Source of the DNA: Helicobacteraceae bacterium
GTDB taxonomy: Bacteria; Campylobacterota; Campylobacteria; Campylobacterales; SZUA-545
Direction: 5' to 3'
Assembly (NCBI GenBank): GCA_031260125.1
Contig: JAIRKM010000068.1
Span: 1-49,813 of the forward strand
Length of the DNA: 49,813 nucleotides
In this document: positions 40,665 to 45,989 of the stretch, piece by piece
How positions within the stretch are numbered: the first letter of the stretch is position 1
Layout: each line of letters begins with the position of its first letter
Notes under the pieces: generated by a model
What the model saw: only the letters and a program-made list of their open reading frames with translations
The model's database searches: none
Told to the model about the DNA's origin: nothing
Program-made: the position numbers and the translations under genes

Positions 40665-41399
40665 TTAGTCAATGTCGTTATGGGCGGCTAACGGATTTTG
40701 CGATGAAATAATCTCGGATTGTATATCGTATTTGCTCAATTCCTTTTGCAATGCCTTGCCCAAAAACCGCTCTGTTTCGTAATGCCCCGCGTCAATAACG
40801 CCGATTCCCAGCGTTTTTGCTTTGATCGCGTCGTGATACTTCAGATCGCCGGTAATTAAAATATCGCATTCGATTTCGCCGATCAAGCCGCCGCCGCTTC
40901 CGCAGCAAAAAGCGACGCGATATTCTTCGCGGCATAGCGGTGGCAGAACCGATCTAACGCCGCCGAAAGCGGCTTTTATAATCTCCATAATTCGTTCAAA
41001 GCTAAATCGGGTTTTGTGATAGCAGACACACCCTTCGCAATCAAACTCCTGCCAGCCTAAAACCTCTTTGGCGACGTAGCGGTTGAGATGGCTCTTGTCG
41101 AAATTGGTATGCATCGCGATCAGCGCGGCGTTTTTCTGAATAATATCGCGGATCAAAAGCGCGGGATATTCGGAAAAATTAAGCGATTTAAGCGGCGCGA
41201 ATATCAGCGGGTGATGAACGATCAGCGCCGCGTTTTCCGATAAAGTATCTATCACTTTTTTGTCTGCTTCCAGCGAAAGATATATTTGCGATATGGCGGC
41301 GTTTGGATCGCCCACTATTAAACCGCTGTTGTCCCAAGTCTCCTGCGTATTAAACGGTGAGATTTGATCGCATATATTTAACAGCTCTTTGACGATCAT
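40665..41399 (-). CDS. Nif3-like dinuclear metal centre protein (YbgI/DUF34)
   Basis: The protein has 244 residues. The dinuclear metal ligands are visible: IVHHPLIF (His-His), MHTNFDKSHLN (H and D) and the C-terminal DAGHYETE. TWDNSGLIVGD near the N-terminus is a family signature. The molecular function is unsettled in the literature (links to GTP cyclohydrolase and metal insertion). It overlaps the preceding PstS-like gene by ATGA. In H. pylori the homologue HP0959 adjoins HP0958. Confidence 0.9.
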   Translation of the reverse strand: MIVKELLNICDQISPFNTQETWDNSGLIVGDPNAAISQIYLSLEADKKVIDTLSENAALIVHHPLIFAPLKSLNFSEYPALLIRDIIQKNAALIAMHTNFDKSHLNRYVAKEVLGWQEFDCEGCVCYHKTRFSFERIMEIIKAAFGGVRSVLPPLCREEYRVAFCCGSGGGLIGEIECDILITGDLKYHDAIKAKTLGIGVIDAGHYETERFLGKALQKELSKYDIQSEIISSQNPLAAHNDID

Positions 41400-42892
41400 T
41401 TTATGCTCGTAATAGGAACGTAGCCGACATCTTCGATCAGCGCTTGACCCTGATCGCTCAAAAACCAGTCGATCAGCTTTTGCGCGTTTGGCGCGACATC
41501 ATTTTTGCGCGTAACGATATAGAACTCATAAACAAGAGGATAGCTTCCGTTTTGAATGTTTTCGCGCTTAGGTTCGACTCCATTGATCGCCAGCTGTCTG
41601 ACGCCGTTTTTTTGCAGCGTCTCGGCAAAAAACTTCAGCGAATAGCCTATTGCGTTGTCGGCGTTTCTGTAGCCTTTATTGTTGTACATGCGGGCGATTG
41701 ACGGCGGTTTGGCAAAAGGAAAGTCTTTCATAACGACGCGCTCCATAATTATCTGGCTGTCCGAGTCCGCAAACTGCCTAAAAGTTAGAATCTTCTCGTT
41801 TTCGCCTCCCACCTCTCGCCAGTTGGTTATTTCGTCCGAGTATATTTTTTGAATCTGATCTACCGTAAGGGAATGAACTGGATTTACTTCGTTCGATAAG
41901 ATCACAAACGCTTCTCTGCCTATCGGGGTTATTTGTAGTTCTATATTATTTTTGCGCGCCATTTCTATATCTGCGTCAGATGGCGCAAAAGCAAGAATCA
42001 TATCAACATCTTTATTGATTAGCCTTTCATATGCGTAGCGTCCGTCGTAGCTTCCGCCACGCGGATAATATATGCCTGCAAACTGATTATGGGTAAGGTT
42101 ATATGGCCTTTTGAATAGCACTTCGGCGGCTGAACTATAAATAGGATAAAACGCCGCCGCGCCACCTATAATAGGCCAATTGCTTTCGATAGAAATTGTG
42201 CTTTCACCTCTTAAACTGACAGCTTTGCCCGAATGAATGTCATAAACAACGGGCGGCAGATCGTAAGCCTCTTTGGTAAGCACGTTTAATAGCGCCTTTG
42301 GGTGCCGGTAGGTATAGAGCGATACGGCAAGCGCCATAAGCAGAACAAATATAAAGACGGAGAAAAACAGAGATCGCCCGCTTGCTATGCGGCGCTTTTT
42401 GCGCAGCGCCCCGATCGCGAAGGCAATGGCGAAAGCGCCGTAAACCGCCAGAAGATAAACGAGATAGTATGGGACTCCCATAGAAAATGAGATGTAAACA
42501 GCGGACAGTATAAAATGAAGGTTCGTTATAAAAAGAAGAAAATTTATAAACCCAAAATAGGTGTCGTTATCCACGACTGCGATTGCGGCGATCCAGTTAA
42601 GATCGATAAGTAACGCCGCGACAAACAACGGCAGGAAGAGCGGAAAACAAGTCCGAAAGTAGCCGTCTGCGATCTCCATTTTGACGGCTCTAAAATAACC
42701 CATTGCGGCGGCTATAATCACACCCATAACAAGCGGCGCGGCTACGAACGTCTTACTAGGAACGATTAAAACGAGCGCGATCATCGTTACTTGCAAAACA
42801 ACCGGCACGTAAAACAAAATCCATATATAGAGATTTGATCTAAGATGGCTCAATATTGCCAACAATATGTTTGTCAATTTGTTTTCACTCAT
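41396..42892 (-). CDS. Membrane-anchored PstS-like phosphate-binding-domain protein (copy B)
   Basis: The protein has 498 residues. The first ~200 residues are five or six hydrophobic helices with basic loops (RAVKMEIADGYF; ALRKKRRIASGR). The rest is a periplasmic-binding-protein domain of the PstS type: AAAFYPIYSSAAEV, TPIGREAFVILSNEVNPV, IQKIYSDEITNWREVGG. The phosphate-contact SGT of classical PstS is SDS here. The membrane part is not a signal peptide, so the domain is tethered. It is the tandem paralogue of the gene at 42892-44499 and shares a 71-bp block with it. No pstC, pstA, pstB or phoU is nearby. Function is unknown; sensing or delivery of an oxyanion is an inference. Confidence 0.8.
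   Translation of the reverse strand: MSENKLTNILLAILSHLRSNLYIWILFYVPVVLQVTMIALVLIVPSKTFVAAPLVMGVIIAAAMGYFRAVKMEIADGYFRTCFPLFLPLFVAALLIDLNWIAAIAVVDNDTYFGFINFLLFITNLHFILSAVYISFSMGVPYYLVYLLAVYGAFAIAFAIGALRKKRRIASGRSLFFSVFIFVLLMALAVSLYTYRHPKALLNVLTKEAYDLPPVVYDIHSGKAVSLRGESTISIESNWPIIGGAAAFYPIYSSAAEVLFKRPYNLTHNQFAGIYYPRGGSYDGRYAYERLINKDVDMILAFAPSDADIEMARKNNIELQITPIGREAFVILSNEVNPVHSLTVDQIQKIYSDEITNWREVGGENEKILTFRQFADSDSQIIMERVVMKDFPFAKPPSIARMYNNKGYRNADNAIGYSLKFFAETLQKNGVRQLAINGVEPKRENIQNGSYPLVYEFYIVTRKNDVAPNAQKLIDWFLSDQGQALIEDVGYVPITSIK
41415..41485 (-). repeat. 71-bp block shared with the upstream paralogue (copy B)
   Basis: The block matches 42917-42987 at 70 of 71 positions. It encodes the last ~24 residues of both PstS-like proteins, whose remaining sequences are much less alike. 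Confidence 0.9.
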
Positions 42893-44499
42893 TATAACTC
42901 CCCTTTGCGCGTGATTGGAACGTAGCCGACATCTTCGATTAGCGCTTGACCCTGATCGCTCAAAAACCAGTCGATCAGCTTTTGCGCATTGGGGCTTATA
43001 TCGTCTTTACGAGCGGCGATGTACAACTTCTGTATTAGCGGATACGATCCGTTTTTTATATTTTCAGCCGTCGGTTCTACGCCGTTTATTGCCAAAAGCC
43101 GTATCCCCTCCGTTTTGTGCATAACGGTCGCGAAATAGCGAAACGAATAGCCGATCGCGTTTTTCGCGTTGCGATAATCGGCTACAACTTCCAGCATACC
43201 GCCCATAGTTTCAACTAACTCCTGAAGCGGGGTTTTAAGTTTAAGCCCTTTCATCACCATCTCTTCCATCGTCGTTTGGCTACCCGAATAGGCGTTGCGC
43301 TGAAAAGCTAAAATCTTCTCATTGTTGCCGCCGACTTCGCGCCAATTGGTTATCTCTCCGGTATATATCTTTTGAATCTGCTCTATAGTAAGCGATTTGA
43401 TCGGGTTTTGTTCGTTCACAAAAAATACAAACGCCTCTTTGCCGATCGGCGTTAAAGCAAGCTCAACATGCGCTGACGCTTCGGACGGTTTTAAGCGATC
43501 ATCCGGAGGAGAAGCAACAAAGATGAGATCGGCTGTTTTATCGATCAGATTTTCATAAGCATAAGGCGTGCGTGAGCAGGCGATATACTCGTATACAAAA
43601 TATCTGTATTCGATATTTTCAGGTTTTTTATATATCGCTTGAGCGGCGACTGAGTAAATAGGATACAACGCGGTTGCGCCGTCGAGTTTGGGCAGATTAT
43701 CTTCAAAATAGATCGTGGGCTTTTCTCTTAACCCCTCTTGAGGCGACTCGCCGCCGCGATCGATGATAAGTTCATCAATAAATTCGTCGAACATGCTGCC
43801 ATAGTCGTCTGCAATTGACATCAGCTTTTGCGTATCGCCAGAGATCATATACGTGCTTTTATACGAGATCATCGCTATTGCGGGCGCAGCAACGGCAAGT
43901 GCTATGACAGCCGATAGATATATTGGCTTTTTATTGACTATTTGCCGCCTTTTGCCGCCAAGTCCAAAGAAAAATCCAACAGCAAAAGCCCAATAGGTCG
44001 TTAAAACAAACGCTAAAAAATAGGTTGTAGAGGAGACAAAGGCAAACGCTATGGCGCTAAAGAAAAACACAATATTTACAAAATACCATACAATATCCGA
44101 GCTTGCAGGCATAAAGGATAGTTCGTCCGCAAATATGTCTAAAGCGCAGACGACGCTCAATTGAAGCGCGGTGAGTATTATCGGTAAAAACAGGGCAAAA
44201 TAGGTTTTAAAATATCCGTCTTTCACCTCCAACTTCTTCGATCGTAAATAGCCCAGCGCTCCGATCCCGATCGCCGTAACAGCCAGACTAACTTCAATCC
44301 CATCGTACAATAGGCGCTCGCCGATCAGCACGCAACCGAAAAGGAGAATCTGCGCGGCGATCGGCGCGTAGATCAGGCTCCACATGTAGTTGTTCAGCCC
44401 AAAAAAAGCGCCTATCGAGCGTAAAACGCCCCGCGCCGCTACCTCACTTGCGCCGCCGCTTTCGTCAGCGGTTTTGGAATGATCGTTATTCGTCTTCAT
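42892..44499 (-). CDS. Membrane-anchored PstS-like phosphate-binding-domain protein (copy A)
   Basis: The protein has 535 residues. A polar N-terminal ~35 residues precedes about six hydrophobic segments (roughly 40-62, 69-86, 100-123, 135-157, 159-180, 195-213). A PstS-type domain follows from about 265: DGATALYPIYSVAAQAIY, LTPIGKEAFVFFVNEQNP, IQKIYTGEITNWREVGG, then AYSGSQ where PstS has SGT. The basic loop GGKRRQIVNKK conflicts with a simple six-helix, binding-domain-outside model, so topology is open. The ATG at 44499 has AAAGG upstream; TTG 44502 is the alternative. The stop overlaps copy B by one base (TAATG), so the two are translationally coupled and may form a pair. Confidence 0.8.
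   Translation of the reverse strand: MKTNNDHSKTADESGGASEVAARGVLRSIGAFFGLNNYMWSLIYAPIAAQILLFGCVLIGERLLYDGIEVSLAVTAIGIGALGYLRSKKLEVKDGYFKTYFALFLPIILTALQLSVVCALDIFADELSFMPASSDIVWYFVNIVFFFSAIAFAFVSSTTYFLAFVLTTYWAFAVGFFFGLGGKRRQIVNKKPIYLSAVIALAVAAPAIAMISYKSTYMISGDTQKLMSIADDYGSMFDEFIDELIIDRGGESPQEGLREKPTIYFEDNLPKLDGATALYPIYSVAAQAIYKKPENIEYRYFVYEYIACSRTPYAYENLIDKTADLIFVASPPDDRLKPSEASAHVELALTPIGKEAFVFFVNEQNPIKSLTIEQIQKIYTGEITNWREVGGNNEKILAFQRNAYSGSQTTMEEMVMKGLKLKTPLQELVETMGGMLEVVADYRNAKNAIGYSFRYFATVMHKTEGIRLLAINGVEPTAENIKNGSYPLIQKLYIAARKDDISPNAQKLIDWFLSDQGQALIEDVGYVPITRKGEL
42917..42987 (-). repeat. 71-bp block shared with the downstream paralogue (copy A)
   Basis: It matches 41415-41485 with one mismatch, at the same place in the reading frame, and encodes the C-terminal LIDWFLSDQGQALIEDVGYV. 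Confidence 0.9.
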
Positions 44500-44518
44500 C
44501 AATTGCCTTTGCGCTCAA

Positions 44519-45989
<1,471 letters not shown>

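Follow-up and report, generated by a model that had tools for sequence, protein, structure and literature searches.

A tandem pair of membrane-fused PstS-like proteins in a Helicobacteraceae bacterium: a putative oxyanion receptor and its degenerate partner

We analyzed a 49,813-nucleotide stretch of DNA (hereafter the window; contig JAIRKM010000068.1 of assembly GCA_031260125.1) from a Helicobacteraceae bacterium, in which two adjacent genes, A (P0002) and B (P0001), each encode a polytopic membrane region fused to a domain resembling the phosphate-binding protein PstS. We tentatively interpret them, at close to even chances, as an orphan inner-membrane-anchored pair that forms a receptor or a binding-protein-dependent unit, with A as the oxyanion receptor and B as a non-binding partner. 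Open reading frame (ORF) calling places both genes on the minus strand, A first and B second; the stop codon of A and the start codon of B overlap in TTATAATGAG (TAATG), with a good ribosome-binding site, GGGGAG, just upstream of the B start. The two proteins are 40% identical across 520 amino acids (aa), and each consists of approximately 200 residues of hydrophobic segments (about six), a variable linker and a PBP_like_2 domain, in agreement with the initial annotation, which had recognized two coupled genes of this architecture. That annotation also noted the absence of an adjoining phosphate transporter; indeed, the genes flanking the pair include neither pst or phoU nor a two-component gene, and a complete pstS-pstC-pstA-pstB-phoU cluster is located on another contig of the same genome (C17), so that ordinary phosphate uptake is not missing.

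The binding domains of A and B match Pfam PBP_like_2 (PF12849) at 2e-28 and 1.2e-22, with scores of 100.4 and 81.5 bits, above the Pfam gathering score of 27. Against the PstS family TIGR02136, they score 113.9 and 138.2 bits, below the curated cut-off of 206.6, and the other members of the membrane-fused family (119-145 bits) also fall below it, the overall range being 114-145 bits. The AlphaFold2 (AF2) model of A (predicted local distance difference test, pLDDT, 88.4; predicted template modeling score, pTM, 0.86) has as its best Foldseek match the Clostridium perfringens PstS with bound phosphate (4gd5; E 3.8e-15; TM-score 0.78 normalized to the target); the PstS-type periplasmic binding protein fold is assigned to A by Foldseek and to B by sequence only. 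With PstS (TIGR02136/PBP_like_2; C. perfringens 4gd5 and 4q8r), these proteins share the two-lobed fold, the R...S-G-(T/S) oxyanion motif and ITNWxEVGG, at about 20-24% identity. They differ from PstS in the fusion to a membrane domain of 3-6 segments, in the lack of a pst operon and in the presence of SGSQ where the closest solved relative has SGTR. The ITNWREVGG segment that had been reported as conserved is found in both A and B.

In an alignment of 74 homologues, the pocket residues of A are strongly conserved (R402 in 71, S406 in all 74, G407 in 69 and S408 in 72), and the motifs DGATA, D..F..PS, FQR..SGSQT and GYSFR are nearly invariant; all are retained in A, with PP replacing PS. Aligned through the profile, R402, S406 and G407 of A correspond to the Arg and Ser-Gly of PstS, and S408 takes the place of the Thr. 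The change of the SGT phosphate contact to SGS in A and SDS in B, pointed out in the initial annotation, is present in both proteins, but SGS is not peculiar to A, only B being deviant; the interpretation of SGS as loss of the phosphate site was accordingly rejected. Because SGS is the norm of the family, A retains an intact set of oxyanion-type pocket residues. The ligand most likely would be phosphate or a similar small oxyanion, although the family scores well below the TIGR02136 cut-off.

In B, the pocket is degenerate. Glutamine in place of R402 is found in exactly three of the 74 homologues, which form a monophyletic clade consisting of B itself and its counterparts L055:344-1825 and L056:3838-5046 (support of 100 in the Shimodaira-Hasegawa-like approximate likelihood ratio test, SH-aLRT, on a quick tree). 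The members of this clade have Asp or Glu instead of G407, have lost the aspartate of DGATA, and all lack an 8-residue segment beside the pocket, the MGGxxxxVAD stretch before YRN being absent. In each case an A gene comes immediately before the B-type gene, and its stop codon overlaps the start codon of the latter (in L055, the A gene is represented on the contig by its end only). Thus, B shares the architecture and lineage of the SGSQ-type family but not its pocket signature, whereas A possesses both the N-terminal membrane segments and the DGATA, FQR..SGSQT and GYSFR motifs. The ratio of nonsynonymous to synonymous substitution rates (dN/dS) among the B genes is about 0.2-0.25 (~0.23) in open frames; B is under purifying selection even though the pocket residues are lost, indicating a constraint other than that on a canonical binder.

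The N-terminal membrane domain of A comprises, in the AF2 model, helices 38-60, 69-90, 97-124, 134-142/144-156 (broken), 159-182 and 192-216. A Foldseek search yielded no match in the Protein Data Bank (PDB) at E<=0.001 (best E 0.88, probability 0.18), and the fold of ABC (ATP-binding cassette) permeases was not recovered (OpuA, E 5.6). The possibility that this region is a subunit of a known transporter was examined and rejected, with Pfam, NCBIfam and Foldseek all empty; nor does a split introduced by annotation explain the fusion. In one relative (L011/L052), the position of B is occupied, with the same TAATG junction, by a gene for a 165-aa protein that consists of the membrane domain only, and membrane-only neighbors are found also in L063 and L090; these three genes could be truncated duplicates.

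The conflict between basic loops and a simple topology, which had been noticed in the pair, is real and family-wide. Over 37 homologues, the mean number of lysines and arginines is 3.2 in the N-terminus, 3.0 in loop 2 and 5.0 in loop 5, compared to 0.5 in loop 1 and 0.2 in loop 3. By this pattern, the N-terminus and loops 2 and 5 would be cytoplasmic and the binding domain external, with segments 4 and 5 together accounting for a single net crossing. Given that segment 4 is broken in the model of A and that one of segments 4 and 5, taken to be segment 4, is missing in L012, L032 and the L011 membrane-only protein, the conflict is likely resolved if the chain crosses the membrane five times and one further segment (4 or 5) does not span it, being possibly re-entrant.

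The fusion is not confined to the window. Within the same order, 399 Campylobacterota genomes were surveyed, and full fusions were restricted to two genera of the family to which the window belongs. When 84,980 species genomes were scanned and the encoded proteins checked, the best 79 loci, described here, included forms with 5-6 segments in Helicobacteraceae, Campylobacteraceae, and beta-proteobacterial, clostridial and Opitutaceae metagenome-assembled genomes (MAGs), and forms with 3 segments in Bacilli. Relatives with other N-termini also exist: L138 has one segment, L126 from Treponema a signal peptide only, and L111 six WG repeats; in the last of these, L111:4112-6400 from a betaproteobacterial MAG, the repeats are fused to the same SGSQ binding domain. 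Many of the family-bearing MAGs, judging by their isolate names, presumably come from termite-gut samples. The paired, membrane-built PstS-like system proposed in the initial annotation stands, without an adjoining transporter and with the asymmetry of its subunits supported, but is not a novelty of Campylobacterota, the fusion being spread across Bacillota, Pseudomonadota (including Escherichia coli), Verrucomicrobiota and Campylobacterota. There is a broad, unstudied family of membrane-fused orphan PstS-like proteins, to which the A-B pair belongs and within which its degenerate second subunit is unusual; a search of the open-access literature returned nothing relevant on the function of this family. 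In another family of the order, two PstS-like matches lie within one 584-aa open frame (L014; G025:C195:2868-4223).

A member of the family is present in most E. coli genomes. Of 5426 complete genomes, 4741 match the 505-aa fused protein encoded between glgP and glpD, and in 3322 the match covers at least 80% of the query. The locus protein ECs_4272 / WP_122985426.1 has the same fused architecture, with a 51% identical binding domain, and is annotated as "membrane protein" or "PstS family phosphate ABC transporter substrate-binding protein". In E. coli as in many Bacilli, these proteins are called components of a phosphate transporter from domain similarity alone. The family may have been overlooked because K-12 retains only the fragment YzgL (L129:6725-7006, b3427), a truncated N-terminus 89% identical to residues 5-85.

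As in the window, the fused E. coli gene is accompanied by a tandem second binding domain or a membrane-only gene. In O157, the order is ECs_4272, ECs_4271 and ECs_4270, the last encoding a 200-aa polytopic protein. ECs_4271 (L150:7412-8404), 58% identical to the binding domain of ECs_4272, is annotated as "ABC transporter ATP-binding protein", an assignment that we rejected given that it is a lipoprotein with a PstS-like domain only; its pocket is mostly intact, in contrast to the degenerate fused protein of the window. In other strains, a YbbD-family gene and a gene for a 255-aa protein replace the second gene. We also observed that, in many E. coli (L128:6838-8318; L151:6001-7481), two genes without functional names, one annotated as YbbD family, lie between the fused and the membrane-only genes, and that other strains have a lipoprotein binding domain or pseudogenes at this place. 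Against a profile of the membrane domain, ECs_4270 scores 36.3, and none of 71 unrelated membrane proteins scores above 18.5 (initially 73 decoys, two high scorers among which turned out to be the L063 and L090 neighbors). For ECs_4270 and its homologue Ec201 (69% identical), dN/dS is 0.25, and for the fused E. coli genes it is 0.12.

We infer from these observations the topology of the pair, its ligand class and the assembly of A with B. The proposed arrangement is that A, with its N-terminus inside, would expose a PstS-type Venus-flytrap domain on the periplasmic side, while its membrane domain probably assembles with that of B; the pair would then be a ligand-responsive membrane receptor or a binding-protein-dependent unit in which A recognizes the ligand and B is a structural or non-binding subunit. 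A functional asymmetry between A and B is supported by the pocket loss in the B clade, the purifying selection and the membrane-only partners found elsewhere. The existence of a degenerate partner and of membrane-only genes suggests that the membrane part has a function in its own right; if so, a binding protein would here be used in a novel manner. In E. coli, the family is directly testable. Fused ABC importers such as GlnPQ and OpuA also join a substrate-binding domain to a polytopic membrane protein but, unlike these, the A-B pair has no ATPase partner, and its membrane domain is unmatched to ABC permeases. TAXI-GltS is a case of a binding protein that dispenses with a classical transporter and is coupled or fused to another membrane protein, the known symporter GltS (PMC12344293), whereas the membrane part of the pair matches no solved fold. 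More broadly, these proteins might represent an undescribed class of binding-protein-dependent membrane complexes, distributed from Campylobacterota of the termite gut to E. coli and operating with no ABC ATPase, kinase or known symporter. Their heteromeric core would have a novel membrane fold, with five crossings and a non-spanning segment, and would combine a subunit bearing a PstS-type oxyanion receptor with another whose receptor is dead or absent. This proposition appears doubtful at present.

Several observations weigh against a heteromeric receptor. The B clade is small, with three genomes, in one of which the gene runs off its contig, and the A partners of the window and of L056 belong to different branches, so that the L056 B does not follow its A in the tree; B therefore was re-paired or transferred. 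Ec201 scores 14.6 against the membrane-domain profile, no better than the decoys, which makes the homology of ECs_4270 to this domain probable rather than proven. In a weak test, E. coli-type Pho boxes upstream did not exceed shuffled sequences, L054 with a single weak site being the exception. Within A, the membrane domain evolves fastest, and the number of membrane segments varies from 0 to 6 across the family, as expected of a mere anchor. The last points fit a passive tether, in which the membrane part would merely stand in for a lipid anchor or a free periplasmic form, with A passing phosphate to a PstCAB encoded elsewhere and B a diverged paralogue with another ligand: the N-terminal anchoring varies (0, 1, 3 or 5-6 transmembrane segments, a lipoprotein, WG repeats) around a constant binding domain, and a complete pst cluster is available in the genome. 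An inert anchor, however, leaves unexplained why membrane-only genes are kept beside the fused ones, under purifying selection in E. coli, and why B keeps the membrane domain but not the pocket; the normal PstS of the genome is, moreover, intact. We therefore favor the paired receptor or binding-protein-dependent unit with modest confidence, and regard the tether as somewhat unlikely.

The turnover of these arrays also weighs against a heteromeric receptor. Copy number changes often, and a congener (G001) carries a broken fused gene with several in-frame stops (L013, G001:C17:27764-29224), so parts of the arrays may be decaying. The last ~27 shared residues of A and B are the same; the synonymous divergence (dS) between the genes is 0.52 in this 3' tract and saturated over most of the remainder. 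The tandem pair in L048 has the same pattern, suggesting that the ends are homogenized by gene conversion, which we consider probable for A and B; the contigs of several relatives break within the tract, as a repeat would predict. Such turnover, together with the E. coli locus, where pseudogenes and deletions are frequent, is what would be seen if B and the membrane-only genes were decaying duplicates of A, with 3' ends homogenized by gene conversion and no heteromeric function. This explanation seems improbable given the dN/dS values of the B genes and of the E. coli membrane-only gene, and the conservation of the B clade across two annotated families. One array (L035:1642-8595; G013:C223) contains four family genes, three fused and one with a single transmembrane segment, between glyQ-like and nif3-like genes, and also encloses an ldh-like gene; insertions seem to favor the glyQ/nif3 junction, which resembles a hotspot.

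The patchy presence of the family, the rapid change of the membrane part and the inferred transfer among gut bacteria also bring to mind a factor of interbacterial competition, immunity or surface recognition built on the flytrap scaffold, to which the variable cargo of the E. coli locus, including the gene annotated as YbbD family, and an Imm1-family gene about 1 kb away on a Treponema plasmid could be added. A PADLOC search for defense systems gave no match, no toxin gene adjoins the window pair, and the nearly invariant A-type pocket argues for a conserved small ligand, making such a role very unlikely.

The coordinates of the features are collected in Table 1. Downstream, the stop codon of B overlaps by ATGA a gene that we take to be NIF3-like, from its sequence rather than a family search; it follows the array in most relatives with enough contig. 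The position of the upstream PseB-like gene is occupied in relatives by glyQ-like or ldh-like genes (names by sequence reading) and hence this gene is not part of the system. Across phyla, we found no repeated functional neighbor, only lineage-specific synteny, and recognized no pst gene among the repeated neighbors of the relatives.

Table 1. Features of the A-B locus in the window
Feature	Coordinates	Strand	Basis and remarks
Gene A (P0002)	42892..44502	-	ORF; 536 aa from TTG 44502, 535 aa if ATG 44499
A membrane domain, residues 38-216	43855..44391	-	AF2 model; no PDB fold match
A PstS-like binding domain, residues 262-534	42901..43719	-	Pfam; Foldseek
A pocket motif R402-N-A-Y-S406-G407-S408 (family consensus FQR..SGSQT)	43279..43299	-	alignment of 74 homologues
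A 3' tract nearly identical to B 3' end	42901..43005	-	dS
Gene B (P0001)	41396..42892	-	ORF; 498 aa from ATG 42892
B membrane domain, approx. residues 20-195	42308..42835	-	hydropathy, alignment
B PstS-like domain, approx. residues 232-495	41408..42199	-	Pfam, alignment
B degenerate pocket motif Q373-F-A-D-S377-D378-S379 (Arg->Gln, Gly->Asp)	41756..41776	-	alignment
B 3' tract nearly identical to A 3' end	41402..41503	-	dS
Putative NIF3-like gene overlapping B stop (ATGA)	40665..41399	-	ORF
PseB-like nucleotide-sugar dehydratase gene, upstream of A	44519..45505	-	ORF; name by sequence reading, without family search

The ordinary PstS of the same genome (L003:1498-2364; G000 contig C17, ~78.7-79.6 kb) appears to be circularly permuted, with the SGTR half first and the GSSSVTP half second; matches are arranged likewise in several further genomes of this bacterial order (e.g., G014 and G057).

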